Below are positions 24,599 through 46,517 of a stretch of 64,000 nucleotides of DNA, one piece after another. The stretch comes from an uncultured Pseudomonadota bacterium (GTDB lineage Bacteria > Pseudomonadota > Gammaproteobacteria > Steroidobacterales > Steroidobacteraceae). The notes below the pieces were generated by a model that was given only the letters and a program-made list of their open reading frames with translations, was not told the DNA's origin and did not search any database. A program made the position numbers and the translations under genes. Positions within the stretch are counted from its first letter, which is position 1. The number at the start of each line of letters is the position of its first letter. The stretch spans positions 1 to 64,000 of the forward strand of contig CAISDJ010000042.1 in the NCBI GenBank assembly GCA_903884105.1, given 5' to 3'.

Positions 24599-25120
24599 TC
24601 AGCGAGCGGCTTTGTCCAGCGCGGCGGCCTTGTCTTCATCCGCCTTGGCAGCGGCATCGTTGCCCATGTCGCGGTAGATGTCGGCGCGCGCCAGGAAGAC
24701 GTCCGAATTGGTGGGTGCAAGCTCCGCGGCCTTCTGCGCGTCCTCGAGCGCTTTTTCGAACTTGTCGTCGGCGCGCAGGACGCGAGCGCGAGCCAGGTAC
24801 ATTTCGGGATCCGTGGGCTTCAGATCGACGGCCTTGTTGGAGTCGGCGAGCGCCCGCGTGTGGTCGCCGTCCGACGTGTAGGCACGGGCGCGCATGACGA
24901 GGACTTCGGGATCGGTCGGCGCAGCTTGGGCCGCACGGGTGAGCACGCGAATGGCTTCCTTGTTCTGGCCGGAATTCAGGGCCTTCGAGGCGGCGACGAA
25001 CATGTCGTCGATGGACTGTTCGGCAGCCTGGGCGGGAGCGGCAAAACCGGCAACGAGCACGATGGCCCCGAACGCAACCACGGACGAGGCGCCGGTGCGC
25101 TGCAGCATTTTCTTGTACAT
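24599..25120 (-). CDS. Exported tetratricopeptide-repeat protein
   Basis: 173 aa from the ATG at 25120, which has a strong GGGGGA site and gives a signal peptide (MYKKMLQRTGASSVVAFGAIVLVAGFAAPAQA). It carries about three TPR units, with typical A-x-A-x-x-L-D/A-x-P spacing: LVMRARAYTSDGDHTRALADSNKAVDLKP and two similar repeats (about residues 55-160). TPR proteins act as scaffolds in the periplasm; the partner is unknown. It has its own terminator and lies just upstream of the LysR gene's end. Confidence 0.85.
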   Translation of the reverse strand: MYKKMLQRTGASSVVAFGAIVLVAGFAAPAQAAEQSIDDMFVAASKALNSGQNKEAIRVLTRAAQAAPTDPEVLVMRARAYTSDGDHTRALADSNKAVDLKPTDPEMYLARARVLRADDKFEKALEDAQKAAELAPTNSDVFLARADIYRDMGNDAAAKADEDKAAALDKAAR

Positions 25121-25172
25121 GCGAATCCCCCGAAATTGACCTGACTGATGAATCAACAACGACTTCATACGC

Positions 25173-26090
25173 CTAGCTTGCGCGGCTGTCGAGGGGCCTC
25201 GCGGATTGGACCGTGGCCTCTGCGGCAGATTTTAACCATTGCAGCAGCTCAAGCACAGGCGGCTGTCCCATCCGCTGCTGCGGTGCCACGAAGTGGTACT
25301 GAACGTTCGATTCGAAACTGATCGCGAAGGGGCGAACCAGTCGGCCCCGGTCGAGGTCGTCCGCAACCAGGAGGTCCCGAGCGAGGGCGGCCCCTGTTCC
25401 CTGCGCGGCCGCTTCGAGCAGGACCGAATAGTCCCGGCTCAAGGTCGGGGCCAGGGAGACCGGTTTCATGCCGGCCGCCTCGAACCAGCGGGGCCATTCG
25501 TCGTGCGGCGGCCCCGCGGACAGGATCTTGTGACGGAGCAGGTCCGCCGGTTCCCTGAGGTCCGATGCCAGTGCCGGCGAGCACACCAGGCTCATGTGTT
25601 CGCGCGCGAGGGGCTCGGCGTGGATGCCGGGCCAGCCGCCCTTGCCCAGACGGATGCCGACGTCGACCTCATCCGAGCGGTTGAAGTCGATGAGATCATA
25701 GGCACTCGACAGCCATACCGTCGTATCCGGGTGCCTGTGGTGGAAATCCACGAGCCGGTGCACCAACCACCGCGCTGCAAAAGAAGGCAACACACTGATG
25801 CGGATCCGGGCCTGTTTCTCGTGCTGCCGCAGCCGGGCCGTTCCCTGGCGGACGATCTCGAGCGCCTGCTGGACGATCCGGCTGTATTCCTGGCCGGTGT
25901 CGGTCAGCGTGAGGCGAGGTCCGTCCCGGACGAACAGCTGCTGGCCGAGCTGCCCCTCAAGCAGCTTGATCTGCCGGCTCACTGCGCCCTGCGTGATATG
26001 GAGTGCCTCGGCTGCGCGAGTGAAGTTCAAGTGCTGCGCGGCGGCCTCGAACATGCGGATGGCGTTCAGCGAGGGCAGGTCGCGGCTCAT
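25173..26090 (-). CDS. LysR-family transcriptional regulator (GcvA-like)
   Basis: 305 aa. The winged HTH (about 6-65) contains MFEAAAQHLNFTRAAEALHITQGAVSRQIKLLEGQLG. The effector domain follows, with LPSFAARWLVHRL, VDVGIRLGKGGWPG and QGTGAALARDLLVADDL, the GcvA/AmpR subgroup pattern. It diverges from the ring-cleaving dioxygenase gene. A conserved promoter block between them begins nine bases before its own start codon and also precedes two other loci (30336, 36330). It probably controls the dioxygenase and itself in response to an aromatic intermediate. Confidence 0.9.
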   Translation of the reverse strand: MSRDLPSLNAIRMFEAAAQHLNFTRAAEALHITQGAVSRQIKLLEGQLGQQLFVRDGPRLTLTDTGQEYSRIVQQALEIVRQGTARLRQHEKQARIRISVLPSFAARWLVHRLVDFHHRHPDTTVWLSSAYDLIDFNRSDEVDVGIRLGKGGWPGIHAEPLAREHMSLVCSPALASDLREPADLLRHKILSAGPPHDEWPRWFEAAGMKPVSLAPTLSRDYSVLLEAAAQGTGAALARDLLVADDLDRGRLVRPFAISFESNVQYHFVAPQQRMGQPPVLELLQWLKSAAEATVQSARPLDSRAS

Positions 26091-26098
26091 GATCTGTT

Positions 26099-26155
26099 GT
26101 CATCCTCAAGCCCAGAAAATATCGGTTCTGCGTGCCGAGGCAGCTTGTCTATAGT
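26099..26155 (+). promoter_or_regulatory. Shared LysR-type promoter block, copy 1
   Basis: GTCAT at 26099, AGAAAATATCGGTTCT at 26114-26129 (AGAA-N8-TTCT symmetry) and a -10-like TATAGT at 26150-26155. It lies between the LysR gene and the dioxygenase. The same elements recur with identical spacing at 30336 and 36330. Confidence 0.7.
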
Positions 26156-26270
26156 GCCGCGCAGCCGCCCGCCATGCTGATTGTTGCGCTGTCGCGTAGT
26201 CAAGTAACATGCTGCCGGAACACGCAGGGCCCGGCCAGGCCGGCGTAGAGGTTTATCTGGAGAACAAGTC

Positions 26271-27248
26271 ATGAATCTGATTCAAAGCCACCATCACCTG
26301 ACGCTGTGCGTCGGCAAGGCCCAGGAAGACTACGATTTCCACGTTGGCTTGCTCGGCCTGCGCAGCGTCAAAAAGACCGTGCTGTTCGACGGCACCGTGC
26401 CCATCTACCACTTCTACTACGGCAACGAGAACGGCGACCCGAGCACGCTGATCACCTGCTTCCCGTTCCAGCAGGCCGGCGTCATCGGCCGCAAGGGTTC
26501 CGGCCAGATCAAGATCGTCAACCTGTCGGCGCCCTCGAGCTCGCTCGATTTCTGGGCCAAGCGCCTCAAGGCCAAGGGCTACGCATTCAAGCCGTTCGAG
26601 CGCTTCGGCGAGAAGGGCCTGCACTTCGAACATCCGTGCGGCATCGAGTACGAGATCGTCGGTGACGACAAGGACACCCGCAAGCCGTGGACGACGCACG
26701 AGACGCCCGCAACAGTAGCCATCAAGGGCCTGCGTGGCATCACCGTGTCGCTCAAGGACATGGACCCGCAGGGGGAATTCATGGAGGTCGCGTTCGGTGG
26801 CCGCAAGACCAGTACCGATGGCGCCTATACCCGCTATGAAATGGGAGCCGGTGGCGCTGGTTGCATGGTGGATTTCGTGCGCGAGCCCGATCTGGCGCAG
26901 GGTTCCTGGACCTTCGGTGCCGGCACGCCGCATCACTGCGCATTCAAGGTCGACAATGCCGACCAGCAGAAGCAGTTCAAGGACTACGTCGAAGGCATCG
27001 GCTATACGGACATTTCCGACGTGAAGGACCGCAACTACTTCCACTCCGTCTACTTCCGGACGCCGGGCGGCGCGCTGTTCGAGTGCGCCTATTCGATCCC
27101 GGAATCGTTCGAAATCGACGAGAAGCCGGCCGAGTTCGGCGATCGCTTCATGCTGCCGCCGTGGCTCGAAGACCGTCGTGAAGAATTGATGGGCAAGCTC
27201 GAACCGATCGAGTACGAAATGTCGAGTGTCATTGCCGCAGCGCGTTGA
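26271..27248 (+). CDS. Ring-cleaving dioxygenase, PcpA/LinE-like (VOC fold)
   Basis: 325 aa with two vicinal-oxygen-chelate modules. It closely follows the PcpA/LinE layout: SHHHLTLCVG at the N-terminus, DYDFHVGLLGLRSVKKTVLFDG, FGEKGLHFEHPCGIEYEIV, GTPHHCAFKV and GYTDISDVKDRNYFHSVYFRTPGGALFECAYS. The iron ligands would be His9, the second His of PHHCAF (about 224) and the Glu of LFECAYS (about 271), all present. PcpA and LinE open hydroquinones (chlorinated or not) between C1 and C2. The natural substrate may be a substituted hydroquinone. Controlled by the divergent LysR gene, by position and promoter block. Confidence 0.87.
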   Translation: MNLIQSHHHLTLCVGKAQEDYDFHVGLLGLRSVKKTVLFDGTVPIYHFYYGNENGDPSTLITCFPFQQAGVIGRKGSGQIKIVNLSAPSSSLDFWAKRLKAKGYAFKPFERFGEKGLHFEHPCGIEYEIVGDDKDTRKPWTTHETPATVAIKGLRGITVSLKDMDPQGEFMEVAFGGRKTSTDGAYTRYEMGAGGAGCMVDFVREPDLAQGSWTFGAGTPHHCAFKVDNADQQKQFKDYVEGIGYTDISDVKDRNYFHSVYFRTPGGALFECAYSIPESFEIDEKPAEFGDRFMLPPWLEDRREELMGKLEPIEYEMSSVIAAAR

Positions 27249-27521
27249 GTCCTGGCGACCAGACGCGATTTGACCCGATGTCTTGAAGCCTTGGGTGTGC
27301 GAGGGGCCGGTGAGGGCTACAATCCCGCCGGCTCGAGTACAAGGCTGGCGACAGTAGAGTGAGGCACCGGGGTTGCGATGAACGCGCCCACGGGCCGCCT
27401 CGCGCCACGCGCGAGGGACTAGGGGGATTCACAAGGCGGGCAGCGGAACCTCGGACGCTTTATCGAGGGCGGTTGCCGTTGGCTGATCCTGCTGTGGGCA
27501 AGGTGAAGGAGCTCAAGGTTG

Positions 27522-28559
27522 ATGAATAAGCGCAGGTTTGTAACGTTCAGCATCGCGTCGGTGACTGTGGTGCTGATGGGCGCCGCGTTCGTGGCCCAGG
27601 CAGCGCAGCCGGCCCGCACGGCTCGTGCTCCGGCTGCAGCCGCTCCGCAGCAGCCCAACTTCGACAGCGTGCAGATTCGCATCGTGCACGTGCAGGGGAA
27701 GGTCTACCTGCTGAACGGCGCCGGTGGCAATACCTCCGTGCAGATTGGCGACGATGGTGTGCTGGTGGTCGACACGCAGTTTGCGCCGATGGCCGACAAG
27801 ATCGTCGCGGCCATCCGCACCCTGACAGACAAGCCGATCCGCTACGTCGTGAACACGCATTCGCACCCGGATCATGTGGGCGGCAACCAGGCCATCGCGA
27901 GCCAGGGCGCGTCGCTCGGCGGCGCGAACGTCGTCGGCCTCCTCGGCAACCAGGCCATCCAGGGCGCCAAGATCATCGCCCACGAAAACGTGCTCAACTA
28001 CCTGAGCACCGCGCACGGCGCGACACCTGCCATGCCCTCCGCGGCCTGGCCCACGGACACCTATTTCCAGCCGTTCTTCGACGTCTACTTCAACAACGAG
28101 GACGTGCGGTTGTTCCACGTGCCGAATGCACATACGGACGGCGACAGTTACGTCTACTTCCGCGGGTCGGATGTCATCGCGACCGGCGACATCTTCACGA
28201 CCACCGGATTCCCGTTCATCGATCACTCGCGGGGCGGCAACATCGACGGCGTCATTGCCGGCCTCAATTCGGTCCTCGATCTGGCCGTGACGAAGTGGCA
28301 GGACGAAGGTGGCACCATGATCATTCCGGGGCATGGCCGCATCACCGACAAGCACGAAGTGCTTGAGTATCGCGACATGCTCGTCATCATCCGCGACCGG
28401 ATCAGCGACATGGTCGCAAAGCGCATGACCCTGGAGCAGGTGAAGGCGGCGAAGCCAACACTCGACTATGAACCGCGCTTCGGCGCCGACTCCGGCTTCT
28501 GGACGACGGCGCAGTTCATCGAGGCCGTGTACCAGGACGTAGCCAAGGCGAAGAAGTAG
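27522..28559 (+). CDS. Exported metallo-beta-lactamase-fold hydrolase (module MBL 1)
   Basis: 345 aa from the ATG at 27522 (AAGGAG upstream). Signal peptide about 1-28, then an Ala/Pro-rich linker. The MBL fold has VYLLNGAGGNTSVQIGDDGVLVVDTQ, the zinc motif HSHPDH (113-118), AHTDGDSYVYFRGSDVIATGDIF and PGHGRITDKHE. An insertion of about 45 residues after HSHPDH separates it from classic B3 enzymes. All zinc ligands are present. It is followed 46 bp downstream by a family B protein, as at 54049/55692 and 61382/62442. The reaction is unknown; hydrolysis of an ester or lactone in the periplasm is possible. Confidence 0.86.
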   Translation: MNKRRFVTFSIASVTVVLMGAAFVAQAAQPARTARAPAAAAPQQPNFDSVQIRIVHVQGKVYLLNGAGGNTSVQIGDDGVLVVDTQFAPMADKIVAAIRTLTDKPIRYVVNTHSHPDHVGGNQAIASQGASLGGANVVGLLGNQAIQGAKIIAHENVLNYLSTAHGATPAMPSAAWPTDTYFQPFFDVYFNNEDVRLFHVPNAHTDGDSYVYFRGSDVIATGDIFTTTGFPFIDHSRGGNIDGVIAGLNSVLDLAVTKWQDEGGTMIIPGHGRITDKHEVLEYRDMLVIIRDRISDMVAKRMTLEQVKAAKPTLDYEPRFGADSGFWTTAQFIEAVYQDVAKAKK

Positions 28560-28605
28560 CTGGGTTCCCATGACCGCTACCGCGATGAATCTGGTGGAGA
28601 GAACA

Positions 28606-29484
28606 ATGAATTTCAGCAACAAGAAGCCCTTGCCGCTCGCACTGCTGGCTGCGATGGCGCTGCTCGGCGTGACAGGCACCTTCGTCGCCCCGGTGCATGC
28701 GGGCCAGGCGCCCGCCCAGCCGCCCCGCACGCCGCGCGCTGCGGCGCCCATCGATATCACGGGCAATTGGGTTGCAGTCGTCACCGAAGACTGGCGCTTC
28801 CGCATGGTGATCCCGTCCAGGGGCGACTACGCCAGCGTGCCGCTGACGGATGCAGCGCGCAAAGTGGCCGATGCGTGGGATCCCGAAAAGGACAAGGCGT
28901 CGGGCAATGCCTGCAAGGCCTACGGCGTCGCGAACATCATGCGCATGCCGACGCGCCTCAAGATCAACTGGACAGCTGACAACGTACTCAAGGCCGAGAC
29001 CGACGCCGGCAAGCAGGTGCGCAACCTCACGTTCACGAACGTCGTCATCGAGCAGGCGCGGCGTGAAATCGGCGCAACCGGCGGCGGCACGCCGCGTCCC
29101 GATGCGCAGGGCCAGCAGGCGGAGAATATTACTGTCGGCACCGTTGCGGCTGCCGCGCCATCGTTGCAGGGCACTTCGCGTGCGGAATGGGAACGCTCCG
29201 ACCTCAAGGTGACGACCACGAACCACACGGGAGGGTACCTGCGCCGCAACGGTGTTCCGTACAGCGACAAGGCGAACATCACCGAGTATTACTACCGCTA
29301 CGCCGCCTTCGGCGACGAGTGGCTGACGGTATCGACCATTGTGGAGGACCCGCAGAACCTGCGGCAGCCGTTCCTCACGAGCTCGAGCTTCAAGAAGGAA
29401 GCCAACGATTCGAAGTGGGCGCCTTCGGACTGCGTCTCCGAGTGGGGACCGCTCAAGCAGATGGGCGTCGATCCCTTCAACTAG
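28606..29484 (+). CDS. Secreted family B protein, copy 1
   Basis: 292 aa from the ATG at 28606 (GGAGAG eight bases upstream). Signal peptide MNFSNKKPLPLALLAAMALLG... ending near VHAGQ. Family hallmarks: ITGNWVAVVTEDWRFRMVIP, AWDPEKDKASGNACKAYG, IMRMPTRLKI, SLQGTSRAEWE, LKVTTTNHTGGYLRRNGVPYS and LTSSSFKKE. The family is unknown to me. Copies sit directly after MBL genes at three loci. The C-terminal part resembles family A (TTTxxxxGYxRRNGxPxS), which suggests common ancestry. This copy has a longer middle (IEQARREIGATGGGT) than the others. Confidence 0.8.
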   Translation: MNFSNKKPLPLALLAAMALLGVTGTFVAPVHAGQAPAQPPRTPRAAAPIDITGNWVAVVTEDWRFRMVIPSRGDYASVPLTDAARKVADAWDPEKDKASGNACKAYGVANIMRMPTRLKINWTADNVLKAETDAGKQVRNLTFTNVVIEQARREIGATGGGTPRPDAQGQQAENITVGTVAAAAPSLQGTSRAEWERSDLKVTTTNHTGGYLRRNGVPYSDKANITEYYYRYAAFGDEWLTVSTIVEDPQNLRQPFLTSSSFKKEANDSKWAPSDCVSEWGPLKQMGVDPFN

Positions 29485-29489
29485 ACCCG

Positions 29490-29580
29490 CGCCCCTCACC
29501 CGCACTGCGCGTGACCTCTCCCGCGGAGAGGTAATCACTACCCCTCTCCTGGAGGAGAGGGAAACGGAGTGGGTGAGGGT
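29490..29580. repeat. Compound palindrome between convergent genes
   Basis: The outer arms CCCTCACCCgCACT and AGTGGGTGAGGG enclose two smaller hairpins (ACCTCTC/GAGAGGT and CCCTCTCCT/AGGAGAGGG). It lies between the family B gene and the convergent deacetylase gene and probably ends both transcripts. It resembles dispersed GC-rich palindromes of related bacteria. Confidence 0.65.
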
Positions 29581-30242
29581 CAGGTCCGGTCGATCTCGCC
29601 CTGCCCGTCAGCGACGTAGCCCGAAAGGGGCAGTACGATCCGTCCTGAGTCGATCGGTACGCATTCTGCCGGGAAGGTCTGAACGAATTCTGCACCGAGG
29701 GCAGTGAGCTGAGTGATGAAGGCGTCGAGATGGCGCATCGCTCCGGTCGGCAAGTCGTGCAGGACCACCACGCTCCAGGGCCGCGTCCTGACCTCATCGA
29801 TACCGCGGGCGCACCACCCTTCAGGATCGCGCCAATCACCGGGTACGCAATTCCACAGCACGCAACTGTAGGCCTGCGCCTGCAGCCATCCGACGACCGC
29901 CGCGTTGAGAAGATGAGTGCCGATCTGCCCGGCCCGGCCGAAGGGCCTGAACAGCCGTTCTTCGATGCCGAGGCCTTGCAGCACCACATGCGTGCGCGCT
30001 AGTTCGTCCAGCGACGCTTCCGGATCCAGTTCTCCGAGCGGCGTGCGATGCGACCACGTATGGTTGCCGACCCAGTGATCGTCCGCCGCGATTCGGTCCA
30101 CGAGCAGTCTGCCCTCGGTCGTGCTGGCCTTGGAGCCGAGGACAAAGAACGTCGAGAGGATCCCATGCCGTCTCAGGACCTCGAGCACTTGAGGCGAGGT
30201 GTCCGGATCGGGTCCGTTGTCGAAAGTCAGCGTGATTTTCAC
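29580..30242 (-). CDS. Polysaccharide deacetylase (NodB-like) family protein
   Basis: 220 aa from the GTG at 30242, giving VKITLTFDNGPDPDTSPQVLEVL at the N-terminus; an ATG at 30290 adds 16 unconvincing residues. The CE4 motifs are visible: TFDNGPD (metal Asp) and NHTWSH (two metal His), then FRPFGRAGQIG and VVVLHDLP. It lacks a signal peptide, so it may act in the cytoplasm or on small substrates. CE4 enzymes remove N- or O-acetyl groups from sugars. Confidence 0.82.
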   Translation of the reverse strand: MKITLTFDNGPDPDTSPQVLEVLRRHGILSTFFVLGSKASTTEGRLLVDRIAADDHWVGNHTWSHRTPLGELDPEASLDELARTHVVLQGLGIEERLFRPFGRAGQIGTHLLNAAVVGWLQAQAYSCVLWNCVPGDWRDPEGWCARGIDEVRTRPWSVVVLHDLPTGAMRHLDAFITQLTALGAEFVQTFPAECVPIDSGRIVLPLSGYVADGQGEIDRT

Positions 30243-30335
30243 ACCCCGATCATAGTGCTGTGGGCGCCTGTTATGCCGCCGGGCAGACAATTCGGTAATA
30301 CGGCAGCCGAGAGCGAGGCCGTCCCATGAGTTGCC

Positions 30336-30392
30336 GTCATCCTGATCCCCAGAAAATATCGATTCAACCTGAGGGAGCCCGGTCCCTATAGT
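30336..30392 (+). promoter_or_regulatory. Shared LysR-type promoter block, copy 2
   Basis: GTCAT at 30336, AGAAAATATCGATTCA at 30351-30366 and TATAGT at 30387-30392, with exactly the spacing found at 26099. It precedes the alpha/beta hydrolase at 30426 by 33 bp. Confidence 0.7.
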
Positions 30393-30425
30393 GCGCGCCT
30401 GCTAGGAATCGGCGCGCGACAACGA

Positions 30426-31061
30426 ATGAGGAATCCACACCTGACTCAACCGGTGGTGGCCTGGGGTCAACCCTTGGCGGCGGCGCGCGCTGCTGTCATC
30501 GCGGTGCATGGGCGCGCGCAGCACCCGGGTGACATCCAGTCGGTCTGCTCGAGAATCGGGCTGGACGACTTTGCGTGCCTGGCTCCCACGGCGCCGGATG
30601 GCAGCTGGTATCCACAGGCCTTCACCGCGCCACTCGCCAGCAACGAACCCAAGCTCGCGCAGTCACTCGGACAGCTGAAGGCTTTGGTCAGCGAAATCAT
30701 CGAAGCCGGGATTGATCGTCAAAGGATCGTGCTGGTGGGATTTTCGCAAGGGGCCTGCCTGCTGGCCGAGTACGCGCTGCGGCATCCCGCGCGCTACGGC
30801 GCGTTGCTCGTCCTGACGGGGTCTGCCATTGGGCCTGAGGGTACGGAATGGCGCTCCGCCGGCGACTTTGCCGGGACGCGAGTGCTGGTCAGCGGGGCGA
30901 CGCAAGACCCGTGGATCCCCGGGCAGCGAATGCAGGACACCGCTCGGCTCTTCAAGGATCGTGGCGCGCGTGTCACGGAGTACTACTACGGCGGCTCGGA
31001 GCACCTGGTCAGCGATGCAGAAATCGCGCTGGCCCGCCGTATCGTGGGGGAGCTGCAGTGA
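30426..31061 (+). CDS. Alpha/beta hydrolase, phospholipase/carboxylesterase type
   Basis: 211 aa, cytoplasmic (no signal). Visible: oxyanion-hole strand AVIAVHGRAQHP, nucleophile elbow GFSQGACLLAEYALRHP (Ser at about 100), acid in SGATQDPWIP and the catalytic His in GGSEHLVSDAEI. It belongs to the small carboxylesterase family (YpfH/EstB-like). Through the shared promoter block it is probably under the same LysR control as the dioxygenase at 26271, so it may release an aromatic from an ester or act on a ring-cleavage product. The latter is inference. Confidence 0.87.
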   Translation: MRNPHLTQPVVAWGQPLAAARAAVIAVHGRAQHPGDIQSVCSRIGLDDFACLAPTAPDGSWYPQAFTAPLASNEPKLAQSLGQLKALVSEIIEAGIDRQRIVLVGFSQGACLLAEYALRHPARYGALLVLTGSAIGPEGTEWRSAGDFAGTRVLVSGATQDPWIPGQRMQDTARLFKDRGARVTEYYYGGSEHLVSDAEIALARRIVGELQ

Positions 31062-31446
31062 GGGTCCTGAATGGGATCGCCAGCTGCGTGTCATCAGGGG
31101 TTTCCACCCGTACCCTGCGAGCGTGGTGAAAGCGCAACGCAGCACGGTTGGCCGCTGCCTCTTGGGCACCCGAGTGTCTTCCGGAAGGCGCCCGCCTCGG
31201 TTAACGAAAATTTGACACTTCTCAGGCCCGGCTTGACGTAACTTGGGCTCCGATGTAAACCGTAGTCTCTGAAGAGCAGGTGCGAGATACCTGCCAAGCA
31301 GGCTGTTGTGGCAAAATCACAAGCGCGGTCCTGCATCGCGGGACGGAGGCTGTTGCAGAGTTCTGTTTTTGACGGCCAACCAGCCGTCTTGATCTCGATG
31401 GTCACTGTTTGATTTGTCGTCTGGTATCAATTAGGGGGATCCATCA
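31062..31446. other. Leader of the second TonB receptor
   Basis: 385 bp without a gene. A sigma-70-like promoter can be drawn at about 31234-31262 (TTGACG, 17-bp spacer, TGTAAA). The ~180-bp untranslated leader contains ACCTGC/GCAGGT-type complementarity near 31280-31310. No named riboswitch was recognised. Confidence 0.4.
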
Positions 31447-34245
31447 ATGTCGACCCATCGTCGCAACAAGGTGATCTATGCTGCTGCGAGCCTCGCAGCG
31501 GTTGCATGGTTGCCAACGAGCGTCTATGCCGCCCAGCCCGCCGGGCGGACGGTAGCCGGTGCCATCGAAGAAGTACTCGTGACGGCCCGCCGTCGTGAGG
31601 AAAGCCTGCAGGACGTGCCGATCGCGATTTCCGCGTTCGGTGGCGAGAACCTTCAGCAGCGCGGTATCGAGTCCGTGCAGAGCATGAACGCCGTGGCCCC
31701 GAACCTGTCGGTCATGGGTGGCGGCAACTCGGGTGAGTCGCAGGCCAGCTTCCGCGTCCGCGGCATGCCCGGCGTGTCCGTCTACATCGACGGTGTCGAC
31801 CAGCCCACCACCGACGGCCTGCTCACCATGGGCGTCGTCGAAGTGGATCGTATTGAAGTGCTGCGCGGCCCGCAGGGCACGCTGTTCGGCAACGGTTCGC
31901 TCGGTGGTGCCGTGTCGTACGTCACCAAGGCTCCTGCCGATGTCTACGGTGCACGCGTCCAGGCAACGGTCGGCAGCTTCGACCGCAAGGACATCCAGTT
32001 CTCGCTCGACTTGCCGCTCTCGGATACCTTCAAGACGAAGTTGACCGGTGCCTCGATGACTCGCGACGGCTTCGTGACCTCCAAGGTCATCGACCGCAAG
32101 TACGGCGATGTCAACGACACGCTCTACCGGGCGGACTTCCTGTGGAAGCCGTTCGACGGCTTCTCGGCTCGGTACAACATCGAGAAGTCGGATACCGACC
32201 GCCTCGGGCCGGCCCGCGTCGTGTGGGAAATCGGTCCGACCGGCACCCGCACCGTCGGCGCAACGACGTTCAACACGAACCCGCAGGTGCAGGCCTATGC
32301 CAACGCAACGCGGAACGGCAACTACGTCAACGGCTTCACGAACATCGCGTACAACAACGCGAATGACACGTCGGGCCAGTCGTACAGCACGTCGCTTGGC
32401 AAGTACGACACGCGCGTGGCGTGGGAAACGCACGGTATCGTCATCAACAACCTGCGCCATACCCTCGACCTCAACTGGGAGATCAACGACACGTTCCGCG
32501 TCCGCGGCATCAGCGGCTACAAGGAACTCAAGCGCGTCACCCAGGTTGACTTCGACGGCGCCGCCGAGGTGGTCCTGCTCGAGCGGTTGAACAACACCCG
32601 TACCAACAGCTTCAGCCAGGAACTGCAGATTCTGGGCTCGCACGAGCGAGTGGACTGGGTGCTCGGTGGCTTCTACCAGGCGCAGAACACCAACGGCCGC
32701 GGCGTGACCTGGGGCATGCCCGAGTTCACGTGCGACCTGTGGAGTGCCTCAAACCGCACCGGCCGTGGCATCACGCTGAACGACCAGATCAACTGCTTCA
32801 ACAACCGTGCCCGTGCGTTGAACCGGGACGGTTCACAGGTGAACCCGGTCACGACGACCGCTGGCCAGCTTGCCACCGCCATCACGGGCCTGAGCGCCAA
32901 CAATCCGGCGCTGCAGACGGCTGCGCTCGGCGTGAACCCCGGTGTCTTCACCGCGGCGGCAGCGAGCAACGCCGACACGGGATCGCTGACTAACGCGACC
33001 ACGAAGGCCGTGTTCGGCGACGTCACATGGCGTGCGACGGACAAGTTGAACGTGGCCTTCGGCCTGCGCAAGAGCTGGGACGAGAACCCCGGCTCGATCA
33101 ACCTGCTGAACCACACGCCGAGCCGCGCCGGGCTGCTGCCTGACACGGATATCCCGAACTACTTCGGCTACCTCGAGGTGAATTCGGCCGGTACTCCATT
33201 GCCGGGCCGCCTCAACCCCAGCAAGTTCGACGCGCTCACCAAGCGCCTGACGCTGCAGTATCAGTGGAATCAGGACCTGATGACCTACATCGGCTACTCC
33301 GACGGCTACCAGCCCGGTGGGACGTCGTCCGTGGGTGCCAACATCCTGGTCGTGACGCCGAACACTGGCACGTGCGGTGCGGGTACGCTGGCATCGGGCA
33401 GCAGCTGCGTTGGCGGCTACATGCGTGACATCTTCGTCAACAATCCGGCCGGCAACGACGTGTATGGCCAGCTGAACCCGCTGGTCCGTGAAGAGCAGAC
33501 CGTGAAGAGCTTCGAGGTCGGCATGCGCGCCGATTGGTTCGGTGGCCAGCTGCGCACGAACGTGACGGCGTTCTACACCGACTGGGAGAACATCCCGGTC
33601 AGCGCCTACCATGCGACGAGCTGGTGGGACGTCGACGGCAACGGCTTCGCGGACTCGCAGATCAATGTTGACGGCGTGCCCGGCAACGACATCTTCTTCT
33701 TCCCATCGCTCTACACGGTGGGCGTGAAGAAGGCCGAGGCCAAGGGAATCGAGCTCGAGACCACGTGGCGTGCAACCGACAACCTGCGCTTCAACCTGAA
33801 CGTCGGCTACCTCAAGACGGAGTACACCGAAGTGGGTCGTGACGCAGCGGACTTTGCGAACAGCGGCAAGCTGCCGTTTGCAGCCGTCAATGCCGGAAGC
33901 ATCTTTGCCGGCGCTCCTGAGTTGACTACCAACTTCGGCACGTCGTACGAGTTCCAGCTGGCCGGTGGCCGTTCGATCAGCCCGCGCCTCGATTACACCT
34001 GGACGGACCAGTACACCCTGCAGACGGGTGAAGTCCTTCAGCGCGTCCAGGAAGCCTACGGCATCCTGAATGCACGTATCGGGTACGACTCGGGTGCGAA
34101 TTGGCAGGTTGCCCTCACGGGCGCCAACCTGACGAACGAGTACTACTTCAACTCGGGCTTCTTCACGAAGGCGGAACAGATCCACTTCATGACGGTCGGC
34201 CGTCCGGCCGAGTATGGCCTGCAGTTCAACTTCAAGTTCGAGTGA
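31447..34245 (+). CDS. TonB-dependent outer-membrane receptor
   Basis: 932 aa. Signal peptide about 1-28 (ending VYAAQ). The plug (about 40-165) starts IEEVLVTARRREESLQDVPIAISAF and includes VSVYIDGVDQPT and VDRIEVLRGPQGTLFGNGSLGGAVSYVT. The large barrel ends LQFNFKFE. The VTARRREESLQDVPI plug style belongs to the expanded receptor groups of aromatic- and steroid-degrading proteobacteria. Placement among catabolic genes suggests uptake of the compound that the cluster degrades. Strong terminator 48 bp downstream. Confidence 0.94.
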   Translation: MSTHRRNKVIYAAASLAAVAWLPTSVYAAQPAGRTVAGAIEEVLVTARRREESLQDVPIAISAFGGENLQQRGIESVQSMNAVAPNLSVMGGGNSGESQASFRVRGMPGVSVYIDGVDQPTTDGLLTMGVVEVDRIEVLRGPQGTLFGNGSLGGAVSYVTKAPADVYGARVQATVGSFDRKDIQFSLDLPLSDTFKTKLTGASMTRDGFVTSKVIDRKYGDVNDTLYRADFLWKPFDGFSARYNIEKSDTDRLGPARVVWEIGPTGTRTVGATTFNTNPQVQAYANATRNGNYVNGFTNIAYNNANDTSGQSYSTSLGKYDTRVAWETHGIVINNLRHTLDLNWEINDTFRVRGISGYKELKRVTQVDFDGAAEVVLLERLNNTRTNSFSQELQILGSHERVDWVLGGFYQAQNTNGRGVTWGMPEFTCDLWSASNRTGRGITLNDQINCFNNRARALNRDGSQVNPVTTTAGQLATAITGLSANNPALQTAALGVNPGVFTAAAASNADTGSLTNATTKAVFGDVTWRATDKLNVAFGLRKSWDENPGSINLLNHTPSRAGLLPDTDIPNYFGYLEVNSAGTPLPGRLNPSKFDALTKRLTLQYQWNQDLMTYIGYSDGYQPGGTSSVGANILVVTPNTGTCGAGTLASGSSCVGGYMRDIFVNNPAGNDVYGQLNPLVREEQTVKSFEVGMRADWFGGQLRTNVTAFYTDWENIPVSAYHATSWWDVDGNGFADSQINVDGVPGNDIFFFPSLYTVGVKKAEAKGIELETTWRATDNLRFNLNVGYLKTEYTEVGRDAADFANSGKLPFAAVNAGSIFAGAPELTTNFGTSYEFQLAGGRSISPRLDYTWTDQYTLQTGEVLQRVQEAYGILNARIGYDSGANWQVALTGANLTNEYYFNSGFFTKAEQIHFMTVGRPAEYGLQFNFKFE

Positions 34246-34293
34246 TCCCTCGAACCTGACCTGAACTCGAAAAGAAGAAGCATTGAGACGATG

Positions 34294-34328
34294 GCCCCGG
34301 GACCCAAAAGGTTCCGGGGCTTTTTTTT
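34294..34328 (+). terminator. Rho-independent terminator after TonB receptor
   Basis: GCCCCGG / CCGGGGC stem with a GACCCAAAAGGTT loop region, then eight Ts (34321-34328). Confidence 0.93.
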
Positions 34329-34387
34329 GCGCTGCGGGCATCCCCTCAAGCGGTTGGCAACGCGGAGTCGAGCGCACATACTTGGTG

Positions 34388-34468
34388 TTCCGAAAGGGGA
34401 CAGATCTATTTTCCGCGCAGGTGCAGTGGCACCGCCCGCCAGGAAAACAGATCTGTCCCCTTTCGGAA
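34388..34468. repeat. GGGGACAGATCT palindrome, copy 1
   Basis: A perfect 20-bp inverted repeat (34388-34407 and 34449-34468; core GGGGACAGATCT) extends with one mismatch through ATTTTCC. It lies just upstream of the esterase gene; a sister element lies just downstream (36232-36305). Such elements resemble REP sequences mobilised by REP-associated tyrosine transposases (RAYT); no transposase is here. Confidence 0.8.
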
Positions 34469-34495
34469 TACAACATCATTCGAGGGGGATCGGCC

Positions 34496-36208
34496 ATGGT
34501 TGCGGAGTCGAAGAACACGGAATCTCGCCAGCAGAACACCGAGCAGAGCAGCGTCGATCGGCGCTCGTTCCTCGGCATGGGCGCGCTGGCGGCGGCAGGC
34601 GCGTTGGCTGCGGGTTGCAGCCAGTCAGAGCAAGCCGCGGCTCCGGCCGCCGCTCCGGCAAAGGCGGGCCCCGCACCCTACGTCGAGGGCGAGACCGTGG
34701 AAACGACGTTCGGCAAGATCAAGGGCTCGAGGCGGGGCGACATCCACGCGTTCCGTGGCGTGCCGTATGGTGCCCCCACCGGTGGCAACAACCGCTTCCT
34801 GCCCGCGAGTGCGCCAGCGCCGTGGACCGATGTGAAGACCTGCGCCGAGATCGGTCCCCGCGCGCCGCAGACGCAGGCCCGCATCATCCACGAGTGGGGC
34901 GTGCTCTATCGCCTTGAGGCGGCGAGCGAGGAATGCCTCGTCCTCAACGTGTGGTCCAAGGGACTCGCCGACAATGCCAAGCGTCCTGTCATGGTCTGGC
35001 TGCATGGCGGCGGCTTTGCGGGTGGCTCGTCCGGTGGACTGCCGTATGACGGCACCAACCTGGCCAATGTGCATGACGTCGTGTTCGTCGGCGTGAATCA
35101 CCGCCTGAATGTCTTCGGCTTCCTGTACCTGCCTGAAGTGGGCGGCGAGAAATATTCACAGGCCAGCAACGTCGGCATGCTGGACGTGGTGCTCGCGCTG
35201 CAATGGGTGAAGGACAATATCGAAAAGTTCGGCGGCGACCCGGACAACGTCACCATCCTTGGCCAGTCAGGGGGTGGATCGAAGGTCAGCACGCTGCTCG
35301 GCATGCCGGCCGCCAAGGGCCTGTTCCATCGCGCCATCGCGCAAAGCGGCTCTCAGGTACGCAGCCTGACGCCTGACCAGGGCACGGCGACCGCCCGCGC
35401 GGTGCTGAAGGCGGTGAACCTGAAGCCGAACCAGATCGATCAACTGCAGCAGATGCCGTACTACGTATTGCGCGACGCGCTGACCGATGCAGAGGGCGTC
35501 GGCCAGTTCGCCCCGGTCATGGACAGCCGCACGATCCCGGCCCATAACTTCGATCCCGTCGCGACGCCGATCTCGGAGGACGTCCCATTGATGATCGGGT
35601 CCACTGACACCGAGATCACGTGGAACACCTTCCAGAACTACGACAAGCTCGATGAGGCCAGCCTGCGTCACTACGTGCGCGGCGCGCTCCGGTCAGACGA
35701 TGCGACGGCAGATCGTCTCATCGCTCTGTATCGCGCGTCCTATCCGAGTGCCAGCAACCTGGACCTGTTCCTTAAACTGGGTACTGACGCGTCCAACTTC
35801 CGTCGCGGCACCGGGTTGCAGGCGGAGCGCAAGGCGGCCTTGGGCAAGGCGCCGGTGTTCAAGTACCACTTCGGCTTCTATTCGCCGGTCCGTGACGGAG
35901 AGCTGCGTTCCATGCATTGCATGGATATTCCCTTTGCGCTGCACAACACCCAAATCGCGGGTCCGGTCCTCGGCACGGCGCCCGAGCTGCAGGGACTGGA
36001 GGAGAAGATGTCCACCGCGTGGGCTATGTTTGCGCGGACAGGCAACCCGAACCACCCCGGCATCCCGGAGTGGAAGCCCTTCACGCTCGAGGCCCGCGAT
36101 ACCATGGTGTTCAACATCGACACCAAGGCCGTCCCTGACTACAAGGGTGAGGAGCTCCGGGCGGTGAACGCCGTCCTCGACCAGCCTCGGCCTGCGCGGC
36201 GCGGCTGA
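34496..36208 (+). CDS. Type-B carboxylesterase, Tat/lipoprotein-like
   Basis: 570 aa from the ATG at 34496 (GAGGGGGAT upstream). The N-terminus has a twin-arginine motif (DRRSFLGMGALAAAGALAAGC) ending in a lipobox Cys, so it is probably an exported lipoprotein. The COesterase domain shows AFRGVPYG, ECLVLNVWS, the oxyanion hole WLHGGGF, nucleophile GQSGGGSK and catalytic-His region SMHCMDIPFALHN. It hydrolyses esters of unknown, possibly aromatic, substrates. The gene is bracketed by two similar palindromes, so it may have been acquired or moved as a unit. Confidence 0.92.
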   Translation: MVAESKNTESRQQNTEQSSVDRRSFLGMGALAAAGALAAGCSQSEQAAAPAAAPAKAGPAPYVEGETVETTFGKIKGSRRGDIHAFRGVPYGAPTGGNNRFLPASAPAPWTDVKTCAEIGPRAPQTQARIIHEWGVLYRLEAASEECLVLNVWSKGLADNAKRPVMVWLHGGGFAGGSSGGLPYDGTNLANVHDVVFVGVNHRLNVFGFLYLPEVGGEKYSQASNVGMLDVVLALQWVKDNIEKFGGDPDNVTILGQSGGGSKVSTLLGMPAAKGLFHRAIAQSGSQVRSLTPDQGTATARAVLKAVNLKPNQIDQLQQMPYYVLRDALTDAEGVGQFAPVMDSRTIPAHNFDPVATPISEDVPLMIGSTDTEITWNTFQNYDKLDEASLRHYVRGALRSDDATADRLIALYRASYPSASNLDLFLKLGTDASNFRRGTGLQAERKAALGKAPVFKYHFGFYSPVRDGELRSMHCMDIPFALHNTQIAGPVLGTAPELQGLEEKMSTAWAMFARTGNPNHPGIPEWKPFTLEARDTMVFNIDTKAVPDYKGEELRAVNAVLDQPRPARRG

Positions 36209-36231
36209 AGGTGATGTCTTAAAGGGGACAT

Positions 36232-36305
36232 AAAGGGGACAGATCTATTTTCCGCCTGGGCGCCCCTGCAGGCGGGGAACCGCGGAAAATAGATCTGTCC
36301 CCTTT
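36232..36305. repeat. GGGGACAGATCT palindrome, copy 2
   Basis: A perfect 24-bp inverted repeat (36232-36255 and 36282-36305) shares the AAAGGGGACAGATCT core with copy 1. A partial extra copy of the outer end (AAAGGGGACAT) sits at 36221-36231. It starts 24 bp after the esterase stop. Confidence 0.82.
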
Positions 36306-36329
36306 AAGATCCCGGAGTGATGATTCCGG

Positions 36330-36386
36330 GTCATGATGGGTCTCAGAAAAAATCGGTTCTTGGGAGTTCCTGTCTTTCACTATAGT
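36330..36386 (+). promoter_or_regulatory. Shared LysR-type promoter block, copy 3
   Basis: GTCAT at 36330, AGAAAAAATCGGTTCT at 36345-36360 and TATAGT at 36381-36386, with the same spacing as copies 1 and 2. It drives the tandem family A genes from 36443. Confidence 0.7.
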
Positions 36387-36442
36387 CAGCGCGTCCGGCA
36401 GGCCCGCAACGACAGGCCTCGGCAGATTTTGGAGAGTCATCG

Positions 36443-37312
36443 ATGAACATGGGTCGATCCGGTCTTGCGGGCGCATTCCTCGCCATCGCTGCCATCTGCA
36501 CCGGCGCGCCCGCGTCTGCACAGATGGACCTTTCCGGCAAGTGGCGGCCGCAGCTGCACGAGGATTTTCCAGAGCGGATTCCCGGCCCCGAGCTGGTCGA
36601 CTACGTCGGGTTGCCGATCAATGATTCCGCCCGGATGTTTGCCGACAGCTGGGATCCGGCGCGGTTGACGCTGCCTGAGCACCAGTGCCGTGTGCATACG
36701 GCGCCCTACATCCATCGTGGGCCACACAACCTCCGGATTTCGGAGGTGCGTGACCCCGCTACGCAGATCCTCACGGAGATCCGCCTGTACATCAGCACGT
36801 ACGAGCAGACGCGCGTGATCTACATGGATGGCCGCCCGCATCCGAATGACCTCGTGCCGCACACCTGGATGGGCTTTTCCACGGGCCAATGGGACGGGGA
36901 CATGCTGAAAGTGCACACGACGCACCTCAAGCAGAACTGGATCCGCCGTAACGGCCTGCCGCAGAGCGATGCCGCGGAGATGGAAGAGGTATTCATCCGC
37001 AATGGCGACATGATGACCCACATGTGGACGCTGAAGGATCCCGTGTACCTCACCGAGCCGCTGACCAAGAACGAGAACTACCTGCTGAACCCGCGCGTGG
37101 AGGGCCAGGCCGCCTGGACCTATCCGTGCGTGGCCGTCGTCGAAGTGCCGCGAGAGCAGGGCGACGTGCCCCACTACCTGCCCGGCCAGAACCAGAACAT
37201 GGACGAGCTGTACACGCGCTGGAACATTTCGCATGAAGCGTTCCGGGGCGGCGCGGCCACGATGTACCCCGAGTGGTTCAAGACCCACGGGGTTGCCGAG
37301 CGCACTCGCTGA
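36443..37312 (+). CDS. Secreted family A protein, copy 1
   Basis: 289 aa with a signal peptide (MNMGRSGLAGAFLAIAAICTGAPASAQ). Family hallmarks in order: DLSGKWRPQLHEDFPERIPGPEL, YVGLPINDSARMFADSWDP, LPEHQCRVHTAPY, NLRISEVRDP, RVIYMDGRPHPND, HTWMGFSTGQWDGDML, TTHLKQNWIRRNGLPQSD, DPVYLTEPLTK and a C-terminal RGGAATMYPEWFKT. The two Cys (about 95 and 220) may form a disulfide. No known family is recognised. It is nearly the twin of the next gene, and both follow promoter block copy 3. The absence of obvious catalytic motifs suggests a binding or structural role. Confidence 0.82.
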   Translation: MNMGRSGLAGAFLAIAAICTGAPASAQMDLSGKWRPQLHEDFPERIPGPELVDYVGLPINDSARMFADSWDPARLTLPEHQCRVHTAPYIHRGPHNLRISEVRDPATQILTEIRLYISTYEQTRVIYMDGRPHPNDLVPHTWMGFSTGQWDGDMLKVHTTHLKQNWIRRNGLPQSDAAEMEEVFIRNGDMMTHMWTLKDPVYLTEPLTKNENYLLNPRVEGQAAWTYPCVAVVEVPREQGDVPHYLPGQNQNMDELYTRWNISHEAFRGGAATMYPEWFKTHGVAERTR

Positions 37313-37342
37313 CTCTGGCAGGCGGTGAGGTCAATAGACAAC

Positions 37343-37443
37343 GGAAGTCAGGAAGCTGGGAAGCAAAGGAAGCCGGAAGGTGTCGTGGGGTCGCGCCTTG
37401 CCCGCTCTGGCTTCCGGGCTTCCCCACTTCCTCGCTTCCTTAA
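37343..37443. repeat. GGAAGC-rich palindromic element, copy 2
   Basis: GGAAGC units at 37343-37380 face GCTTCC/CTTCC units at 37409-37440. It separates the two family A genes and could attenuate transcription of the second. Same family as 15393-15508 and 38334-38495. Confidence 0.7.
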
Positions 37444-37460
37444 CGCGCAAGGAATCCTCG

Positions 37461-38333
37461 ATGACTGGACCACGCCGAACCACTGCCGGAATGCTGGCGC
37501 TGACCATTGCAGTGGCGATGTTCCCGCTTGCCGCCACGGCGCAGTCCGACCTGACCGGTCGCTGGCAGCCGCGACAACATGAAGACCAGCCCGAGCGCGG
37601 GCCAGGCCCCGAGCTCGGCGACTATCTCGGATTGCCCATCAACGATGCGGCGCGGCTCTACGCCGACAGCTGGGACCCGGCACGCCTGACGTTGCCCGAG
37701 CACCAGTGCCGTGTGCACACGGCACCGTACATTTTTCGCGGGCCCCTGAACCTGCGCATCTGGGAAGAGCACCATCCGAGCACGCAGGTCGTCGAGAAGA
37801 TCATGATGTACATCCGCACGTACGAGCAGACGCGCACGATCTACATGGATGGCCGCCCGCATCCGAACGAGCTCGCACCCCATACATGGATGGGCTTCTC
37901 GACGGGCAAGTGGGACGGCGATGCGCTCATCGTCACGACCACGCACATCAAGCAGAACTGGGTGCGCCGCAACGGCATCCCGCAGAGCGATCGCGCGACG
38001 CTGATCGAGCGCTTCCAGCGCCATGGCGACCTCATGTCGCACATCTCGATCGTGGAAGATCCGGTGTACCTCACCGAGCCCCTGACCAAGAGCGAGACGT
38101 TCGTGATGAACCCGCGTATCGAGGGCCAGGCGGCATGGACCTATCCGTGCGTGGCTGTGGTCGAAGTCCCGCGGGTGCAGGGCGACGTGCCGCATTACCT
38201 GCCGGGACAGAATGGGAACCTGGCCGAGCTGGCGAAGCGCTGGAACATCAGCGCGGAAGTGTTCCGCGGCGGCGCGCCGCAGATGTATCCCGAGTACGTC
38301 AAGACGCACCAGACAGTAGAGAGGCTCCGATAG
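37461..38333 (+). CDS. Secreted family A protein, copy 2
   Basis: 290 aa from the ATG at 37461 (AAGGAA upstream). Signal peptide MTGPRRTTAGMLALTIAVAMFPLAATAQ. Very close to the preceding gene: DLTGRWQPRQHEDQPERGPGPELGDYLGLPINDAARL, QCRVHTAPYIF, IYMDGRPHPNELAPHTWMGFSTGKWDGDAL, TTHIKQNWVRRNGIPQSD, DPVYLTEPLTKSE and GQAAWTYPCVAVVEVPR (near-identical to copy 1). A recent tandem duplication is likely. It is followed at once by the GGAAGC element copy 3. Confidence 0.82.
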   Translation: MTGPRRTTAGMLALTIAVAMFPLAATAQSDLTGRWQPRQHEDQPERGPGPELGDYLGLPINDAARLYADSWDPARLTLPEHQCRVHTAPYIFRGPLNLRIWEEHHPSTQVVEKIMMYIRTYEQTRTIYMDGRPHPNELAPHTWMGFSTGKWDGDALIVTTTHIKQNWVRRNGIPQSDRATLIERFQRHGDLMSHISIVEDPVYLTEPLTKSETFVMNPRIEGQAAWTYPCVAVVEVPRVQGDVPHYLPGQNGNLAELAKRWNISAEVFRGGAPQMYPEYVKTHQTVERLR

Positions 38334-38495
38334 GAAGCCTAAGGAAGCAAGGAAGCTGGGAAGCAAGGAAGCAAGGAAGCAAGGAAGCAAGGAAGCAAGG
38401 AAGCGAGGAAGCGAGGAAGTAGCGGAAGCCAGATTCTTTAAGTGCTGCCGCCCCTTCCGGCTTCCACCACTTCCTCGCTTCCTTGCTTCCTCGGC
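38334..38495. repeat. GGAAGC-rich palindromic element, copy 3
   Basis: The longest copy: about eight tandem AAGGAAGC octamers (38341-38410) face CTTCC/GCTTCC units (38456-38494). It lies between convergent genes. The octamer array is prone to slippage. Confidence 0.8.
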
Positions 38496-38512
38496 TTTGC
38501 GGCAACCTCTGC

Positions 38513-39718
38513 CTAGACGTTGCCGGGCACGTTCTTGTCCAGCCAGTTGAGCAGCACGCGCGAGATGTCGCGGTTGTTCTTCTCCATCATCATGAAGTGG
38601 CCGTTGCCGTGGATGCCGATGGCGGCCAGTTCCACGTGGTCGACGTTGCAGCCCGCCTGCTTGAGGAATGCGACGGTCCCCCAGTCGTAGGGCACGTGAT
38701 AGGAGGCTTCCGCCGTCACGAGCATGATCGGGATGCCGGCGAGGTTCTTGAGCTTGCGCGCAGGCTCCGCCTGGATCTGGCACGCCTGATAGCCCGGCTT
38801 CGGCGCAGGCACCGTCACGGTCTTGAGCTCTGCGGGACTGGCAGCGGGTGGATCGTAGACCATCGGGCTCGCCGTCACGCCCCACTGCAGCGGACCCATC
38901 GGCGGACCATTCGGTTCGATCGCAAGGATCCCCTTCACGAGGTTCGGCCGCGCGTTGCCTGCGATCCAGCAGCTGGGGCCTCCCATCGAATGCGCCATCA
39001 CGAGGGAGGGGCCGATGCGATCGAGCAGTTCGCCCAGCAGTTCAGCCCACAGCTCGTGCGTTGCCGGCAGATCCGTGAGGAAGGCTCCGCCTTGCCCTGC
39101 AGCCGCCTGGTCGACCGTGGGATCGCCGATCTGTCCGGTCGTGCCCGGCCACTGCGTATGCAGATGCGCCGTGACTGTCTTGTTCGGTGACTTCTCTGGC
39201 GCAGAGAACTGCCGTTCCATGTTTTCGTACGTGGCGGCCGGACGGTAAGGCCCGTGCAATTCCGTGTGATAGGGCGAGCGACCGTGGCCCGGGCGATCGA
39301 CGACGTATACCTTGTAGCCTTGCTCGAGGAAATGCGTGGACCAGCCGCGCCGACCGTCAGGGGTGCCCATCCAGTCGAGGCCCTGGCCGCCGCCGCCGTG
39401 GATGATCACGATGGGGTAGGGGTGCCGGACTCTCGCGGGAATCTGGTACTCCACATACGCCTGTGCGCCGTTGATGACGGTGCCGCGGGCCAATTCAGCG
39501 CGCTTGACGCCCAGCCAGAAGAAGCTCCACTCGGCGATGTCGAGTTCGGGGTCGGCCGCGGCCTTCGCGGGTTGTGCCGCCTCGGCGTCGCCAAGCGAGC
39601 CAAGAGCGACGCCCGCAGCGGCAAGGGCGGAGGTCTGGGCGATGAAGTCCCGGCGCGTGAGCGACGTGTCCGTGGCGGTGGCGGGGAGATCCATTGGGGT
39701 CAGGGGAGTGTCGTTCAT
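38513..39718 (-). CDS. Tat-exported alpha/beta hydrolase (type 1)
   Basis: 401 aa from the ATG at 39718 (AGGA nine bases upstream; an ATG at 39727 is possible). Twin-arginine signal LTRRDFIAQTSALAAAGVALG. The hydrolase core has IVIIHGGGGQGLDWMGTPDGRRGW, VYVVDRPGHGRSPYH, nucleophile VMAHSMGGPSCW, VEPNGPP and the C-terminal HGNGHFMMMEKNNR (catalytic His). It is homologous to the N-terminal half of the fused hydrolase at 40871, while its upstream neighbour is homologous to the C-terminal half. Last gene of the minus-strand block. The substrate is unknown; the related genes suggest an ester or ring-cleavage product. Confidence 0.87.
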   Translation of the reverse strand: MNDTPLTPMDLPATATDTSLTRRDFIAQTSALAAAGVALGSLGDAEAAQPAKAAADPELDIAEWSFFWLGVKRAELARGTVINGAQAYVEYQIPARVRHPYPIVIIHGGGGQGLDWMGTPDGRRGWSTHFLEQGYKVYVVDRPGHGRSPYHTELHGPYRPAATYENMERQFSAPEKSPNKTVTAHLHTQWPGTTGQIGDPTVDQAAAGQGGAFLTDLPATHELWAELLGELLDRIGPSLVMAHSMGGPSCWIAGNARPNLVKGILAIEPNGPPMGPLQWGVTASPMVYDPPAASPAELKTVTVPAPKPGYQACQIQAEPARKLKNLAGIPIMLVTAEASYHVPYDWGTVAFLKQAGCNVDHVELAAIGIHGNGHFMMMEKNNRDISRVLLNWLDKNVPGNV

Positions 39719-39731
39719 GAAGGGCATCCTG

Positions 39732-40766: not shown

Positions 40767-40797
40767 GGGGGTGAGTGGTGCTCAGTGATTAGTGGCC

Positions 40798-40863
40798 GGT
40801 GGCCGGTGGTCGGTGTTGGGAGTCTGGAAGCCACCAGCCACCGATCACCGACCACTGGCCACC
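40798..40863. repeat. 18-bp inverted repeat between hydrolase genes
   Basis: GGTGGCCGGTGGTCGGTG (40798-40815) and its inverted copy (40846-40863, one mismatch) can form a hairpin between the fused and type 2 hydrolase genes. It may lower expression of the downstream pair. Confidence 0.65.
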
Positions 40864-40870
40864 ATCTCAT

Positions 40871-45478: not shown

Positions 45479-45493
45479 GTCAGCAGCAGGGGG

Positions 45494-46498: not shown

Positions 46499-46517
46499 GA
46501 CTTCTCGCTTGTTGTGG

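Follow-up and report, generated by a model that had tools for sequence, protein, structure and literature searches.

A predicted LysR-type regulon of three promoters around a PcpA/LinE/MhqO-type dioxygenase gene in a Steroidobacteraceae genome

According to the passages available of the respective papers, PcpR, a LysR-type protein of Sphingobium chlorophenolicum, controls pcpA, pcpB, and pcpE (PMC4264193), and PnpR regulates several operons of the para-nitrophenol (hydroquinone) pathway (PMC5603801), whereas the mhqED and mhqO-mhqD modules are under MhqR or another MarR-type regulator (PMC6798810, PMC12673573). In this study, we analyzed positions 1 to 64,000 of contig CAISDJ010000042.1 (assembly GCA_903884105.1) from an uncultured bacterium of the Steroidobacteraceae; this whole 64,000-nucleotide stretch is hereafter called the window. 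Three closely similar promoter blocks in it precede a ring-cleaving dioxygenase gene, an alpha/beta hydrolase gene, and a tandem gene pair of an unnamed family (family A; the pair is termed A1 and A2), as the original prediction had noted. Based on sequence comparisons, we consider it quite likely that the three blocks are activator-dependent sigma-70 promoters under the LysR-type protein encoded at 25173, and that the three units are co-activated for the degradation of a hydroquinone-like aromatic compound.

Similar to the PcpR regulon, the window would place a LysR-type regulator over a PcpA-type dioxygenase and further genes. In contrast to that regulon, the annotated genes that follow the three sites include no PcpB-type monooxygenase or PcpE-type reductase, and the predicted window regulon includes a hydrolase and predicted secreted proteins; the likeness drawn here is one of regulon make-up as described in that paper. 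At the linE locus of Sphingomonas sp. MM-1 plasmid pISP3, a LysR gene is likewise divergent from the dioxygenase gene, and an alpha/beta hydrolase and an esterase lie downstream, the esterase being 31% identical to the window hydrolase. However, the hydrolase gene of the window lies 4 kb from the dioxygenase gene, as a unit of its own behind a further copy of the site. The PnpR regulon, as far as the available text describes it, also sets several operons under one LysR-type protein through shared recognition dyads, but its dyad is GTT-N11-AAC, compared with ATGA-N7-TCAT in the window, and a second LysR-type protein, PnpM, takes part in that system. The mhq modules, in the portions of their descriptions at hand, likewise combine a dioxygenase and an alpha/beta hydrolase, and MhqO is among the matches of the window dioxygenase; in contrast, their regulator is of the MarR type instead of the LysR type, and the window hydrolase fails the MhqD model (NF047577, 31.2 bits against a cutoff of 325). 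The intergenic regions of the linE locus and of a Cupriavidus dioxygenase locus each contain one chance-level 4-7-4 dyad unlike ATGA-N7-TCAT. A literature search, mostly without subscription journals, returned no ATGA-N7-TCAT wording and no matching regulon of a LysR-type protein with a hydroquinone dioxygenase.

Exact copies of the composite GTCAT-N10-AGAAAAWATCGRTTC-N21-TATAGT stand at 26099, 30336, and 36330 (sites 1, 2, and 3), all on the plus strand of the window. The offsets between successive elements are 15 and 36 in three of three sites, and the coordinates, strand, and offsets first reported are confirmed exactly. When the window was dinucleotide-shuffled 100 times, the count averaged 0.00, compared with 3 in the real sequence. 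A genome scan with the spaced motif had been set beforehand as a test of the original prediction; with up to three mismatches, it returned the three known sites alone in the 3.73 Mb of the own genome (G000) and none at unrelated promoters, and a reversed-pattern control gave 0. Moreover, the composite was absent from an even sample of 395 other genomes of the order. Among the genomes searched, it is present in full only in the own genome and in a same-genus genome outside that sample (G396). The core 15-mer has three perfect matches in the own genome and one further match with a single mismatch. Because the count of the core alone at up to three mismatches is not significant (3 seen, 1.55 expected), the case rests on exactness and fixed spacing, with the composite taking the place of the core.

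Alignment of the three sites shows 33 invariant columns in a 67-bp block, whereas the two flanks, of 120 columns each, have 11 and 12, and 200,000 random window triplets gave a mean of 5.1 and a maximum of 25 invariant columns. On the plus strand of the window, CTATAGT occurs at these three sites only; on the minus strand, there is a single match, overlapping that at site 3. A weight matrix derived from the sites under study, five in all (three in the window and two in G396), gives the window sites scores of 79.7-94.8, whereas no other position in the window exceeds -13.1; it finds no further site in the window at an alpha/beta hydrolase array, a TonB-dependent receptor gene, or a carboxylesterase gene. 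On 12 further loci (L020-L028, L060, L061, and L070), with 42-51% identical dioxygenases and elsewhere, the best score was -11.5, and nothing approached the site scores.

Several partial matches were rejected. The one-mismatch core match (L004, G000:C40:80941-80955) reads GTCAT-N10-AGAAAAAACCGGTTC with the right GTCAT spacing and was taken as chance: four of four bases of the ATGA arm and five of six of TATAGT differ, and the match lies in frame (VIPMGRKNRF) within an open reading frame that resembles, by inspection, a piece of a transposase. Five of the core matches with two mismatches (L030, L048, L034, L036, and L055) were examined individually. Those on G396 C142 (L048) and G245 C188 (L030) were discarded with GTCAT wrong at five of five positions and TATAGT at five of six, and the other three, tested in the same way, also fail.

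At each site, GTCAT closes a perfect dyad, ATGA-N7-TCAT, on the right; the left arm had been overlooked. The putative recognition dyad lies on the plus strand at 26089-26103, where it overlaps the lysR start codon, at 30326-30340, and at 36320-36334, and an exact ATGA-N7-TCAT occurs nowhere else in the window. At the three window sites and at both G396 sites, it has the classical LysR T-N11-A form. The dyads are followed on the same strand by putative activation-site blocks at 26114-26129 (AGAAAATATCGGTTCT, AGAA-N8-TTCT), 30351-30365 (AGAAAATATCGATTC), and 36345-36360 (AGAAAAAATCGGTTCT), and by TATAGT as the candidate -10 hexamer at 26150-26155, 30387-30392, and 36381-36386, with predicted +1 positions at 26162, 30399, and 36393. 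Relative to these start positions, which take TATAGT as the -10, the dyad centre is at -66 in all three sites, and a hand count puts the centre of the AGAA-N8-TTC block at about -40.5. In the available part of one study, LysR geometry is given as a T-N11-A recognition site near -65 and an activation site near -35 (PMC5603801). The predicted position of the dyad would match this recognition geometry, and the AGAA-N8-TTC block would lie near the activation-site position. A promoter scan of 25800-37400 gave two consensus promoters (1.9 in shuffles), none of them at the three sites, for which no consensus -35 was found; the absence of a consensus promoter at the sites fits weak -35 regions and activator dependence. 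No Rfam match was found in 25000-39000 at gathering scores.

The same-genus genome G396 is 77% complete, and its LysR-type protein and dioxygenase are 95% and 92% identical to those of the window. It keeps both sites that are assembled, namely, site 1 in the lysR-dioxygenase gap and site 3 in front of A1. Over these two sites, the cores of the two genomes differ at 1 of 62 positions and the spacers at 11 of 72. Furthermore, the site 3 block is kept amid rewritten flanks, repeat elements lying upstream of it in one of the two genomes and downstream of it in the second. The G396 assembly lacks the hydrolase orthologue (best match 27%). Separately, we observed repetitive extragenic palindromic (REP)-like inverted pairs of AAAGGGGACAGATCTATTTTCC at 34393-34463 and 36232-36305; in G396, a copy is on the opposite side of site 3.

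The proposed activator is a GcvA/AmpR-like LysR-type regulator of 305 amino acids, encoded at 25173-26090 on the minus strand. It contains PF00126 (HTH_1, 79.1 bits, cutoff 26.6) and PF03466 (LysR_substrate, 125.4 bits, cutoff 28) domains and passes the GcvA subfamily model NF008352 (304.8 bits against a cutoff of 288); its nearest solved relatives are GcvA (best, 8y6u) and AmpR. The gene is divergent from the dioxygenase gene, which starts at 26271 on the plus strand, and site 1 lies between them and overlaps the lysR start, which bears out the earlier placing of one site in this divergent gap. Because the dyad overlaps the start codon, binding at site 1 is suggested to limit lysR expression as well. 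Orthologues (E <= 1e-90) are present in 2 of 217 genomes of the family, the own genome and G396; in the class sample, the own genome alone has one (1 of 369), and plasmids gave no LysR match at E <= 1e-50.

The dioxygenase gene spans 26271-27248 on the plus strand. Its product matches PcpA (4huz, 253 bits) and MhqO (3oaj, 203 bits), with homology over nearly the full length, and its His9, His222, and Glu271 align with His11, His218, and Glu266 of 3oaj (residues hand-counted in the alignment), which are named as the His-His-Glu metal ligands in the consulted portion of PMC12673573. The enzyme is thus of the PcpA/LinE/MhqO type as judged from these matches, with predicted quinol ring cleavage. 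The alpha/beta hydrolase with a GFSQG motif (PF02230) is encoded directly behind site 2 at 30426-31061, plus strand; it may work like MhqD, though not classed as MhqD. Of 17 other loci examined that encode a dioxygenase of the same type, 4 have a relative of this hydrolase nearby, with hydrolase identities of 34% in an Acidimicrobiaceae metagenome-assembled genome, 41% in Pseudarthrobacter, 39% in Rhodococcus, and 31% on the linE plasmid. This fraction is not an unbiased rate because the plasmid records were hand-picked (six opened of 25) and the Rhodococcus record already listed the hydrolase. The dioxygenase and the hydrolase are therefore a recurring pair, here split over two promoters that share one site, which lends motif-independent support to their co-regulation.

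Several points weigh against a single LysR-controlled regulon. The G396 contigs end on either side of the site 2 stretch, and conservation thus covers sites 1 and 3 only; it is also of limited depth because only one other genome carries the system, with a LysR-type protein that is 95% identical. The hydrolase is absent in 13 of the 17 loci, including all eight family relatives outside the genus and the paralogue in the own genome, several of these 13 loci ending close to the dioxygenase. The LysR-type proteins of described loci are distant, that of linE being 27% identical to the window protein over 69 amino acids and that of the Cupriavidus dioxygenase locus 25% over 255. The left arm of the dyad was recognized post hoc, and the dyad alone with one mismatch is not enriched in the window (8 seen, 14.6 expected), so its weight lies in the coincidence of position. 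L004 indicates that the composite can arise in part by chance because GTCAT-N10-core stands there in an apparent coding frame. Finally, a second regulator could bind the activation block, which varies unusually little for a site of this kind and lacks the ATGA/TCAT arms. Collectively, the regulon of the original prediction is nevertheless well supported by the dyad at -66, the activation block, the uniqueness of the composite, its same-genus conservation, and the dioxygenase-hydrolase pairing elsewhere; we infer that the 25173 product is the protein that binds.

The last of these points leads to a reading with two regulators, in which the LysR-type protein would occupy ATGA-N7-TCAT and an unrelated factor would occupy AGAAAAWATCGRTTC. 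The high conservation of the AGAA-N8-TTC block without the dyad arms speaks for it, the more so as no conserved motif is reported for LysR activation sites in the available part of PMC5603801. However, the dyad-block spacing is equal in all five sites, the block is near the expected activation-site position, and each of the three exact block copies that the own genome contains stands behind the dyad, which makes a second factor unlikely. An arrangement of strong constitutive housekeeping promoters with the A-rich AGAAAA as an upstream (UP) element appears very improbable. AGAAAAWAT, hand-placed from the computed positions near -48 to -40, lies where proximal UP elements sit, but housekeeping promoters would recur genome-wide whereas only three copies exist, no consensus -35 was found, and both the dyad and ATCGRTTC would be left unexplained.

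The three promoters might also be copies of one mobile or duplicated segment, their likeness reflecting history rather than selection. The sites lie within about 10.3 kb of one another in a region with mobile-looking repeats, and the spacers of sites 1 and 2 agree at 16 of 36 positions. The other two spacer pairings, in contrast, agree at 8 each, which is near chance, and the flanks are at background, while the core shows 29 invariant columns out of 31. Since one pairing alone exceeds chance and the first downstream genes are unrelated, a recent duplication is unlikely, although sites 1 and 2 could conceivably go back to an older copying event. Moreover, the cores are conserved between species, in contrast to the drifting spacers. 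As an account of the three sites, common descent of the segment is thus hardly probable.

Under the preferred reading, activation by the 25173 product, a LysR tetramer would hold the ATGA-N7-TCAT dyad at about -66 and, when bound to its inducer, would engage the AGAA-N8-TTC block beside a weak -35 region, after which RNA polymerase would use TATAGT. The inducer would probably be a hydroquinone-type substrate or its precursor. Unit 1 would supply the dioxygenase that opens the quinol ring and perhaps also a metallo-hydrolase and a distant relative of family A; unit 2 would supply the alpha/beta hydrolase with GFSQG for a step after ring cleavage and perhaps also a TonB-dependent receptor; and unit 3 would supply the predicted secreted pair A1/A2.

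The possible members of units 1 and 2 are all encoded on the plus strand. A metallo-beta-lactamase-fold protein (PF00753) at 27519-28559, whose gene order is kept in G396, is possibly co-transcribed with the dioxygenase, and the distant family A relative A0 at 28570-29484, downstream of the dioxygenase and 26-32% identical to A1/A2, may be as well. The TonB-dependent receptor (PF00593, PF07715) at 31447-34245 possibly belongs to the site 2 unit across a gap of about 385 bp, with co-transcription uncertain. A terminator-like hairpin at 34293-34321 (12 pairs and a T run) lies between the receptor gene and the carboxylesterase gene and may separate them; such hairpins number 9 in the scanned region against 8.3 expected.

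A1 is encoded behind site 3 at 36443-37312 on the plus strand, has no Pfam match, and is predicted to be secreted from inspection of its N-terminus. A2, in tandem at 37380-38333 on the same strand, is 69% identical to A1, and its true start is probably the ATG at 37461. Family A has at least 20 members in the own genome (20 matches among 20 scored of 81 candidates), with matches in the window at 36443, 37497, 53082, 60443, and 63463 and 15 more on other contigs. At E <= 1e-20, matches occur in 12 of 118 genomes, the own one included; three genomes of another family of the same order (G020, G034, and G045) have 9 to 14 each. In the genome-wide motif search at up to three mismatches, the only site directly in front of a family A gene is that of A1, and the regulon therefore ties the A1/A2 pair, not the whole family, to the pathway. 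The proposed tie between family A and aromatic catabolism thus holds for A1/A2, perhaps also for A0, but does not extend to the rest of the family. The A1 model, made from five sequences, has a mean pLDDT of 50, and a Foldseek search with it gave a best E of 1.3e-3, none <= 0.001; at this low confidence, its strands bear a weak resemblance to a barrel of the fatty-acid-binding or calycin type.

Further observations concern related genes. A second dioxygenase of the same type in the own genome (G000:C70:2817-3740, L020) is 42% identical, and no motif, LysR gene, or hydrolase gene was found within the 8 kb read around it. The dioxygenase homologue at L022 5421-6368 (G275) has one internal TGA. 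The alpha/beta hydrolase array lies at 38513-43198 on the minus strand of the window; its genes are mutually related, their order is kept in G396, and one encodes a double-domain fusion of 775 amino acids. It adjoins a CobS/CobT-like pair at 43676-46612, also on the minus strand.

Collectively, these results describe a complete predicted regulon, with one regulator and three promoters, which is a new example of a well-known bacterial control circuit. With its unusually invariant activation-site block, it would be well suited to defining the sequence requirements of LysR activation sites. For family A, which is heavily expanded and has no Pfam match, the promoters hint at the role of two members. 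It is conceivable, though doubtful, that individual family A members have each come under a single catabolic regulator and serve as binding proteins in the periplasm or at the cell surface, where each copy would deliver one particular aromatic or hydrophobic substrate to its own pathway. If so, the A1/A2 regulon would give a first insight into the function of this large, unnamed set of predicted secreted proteins.

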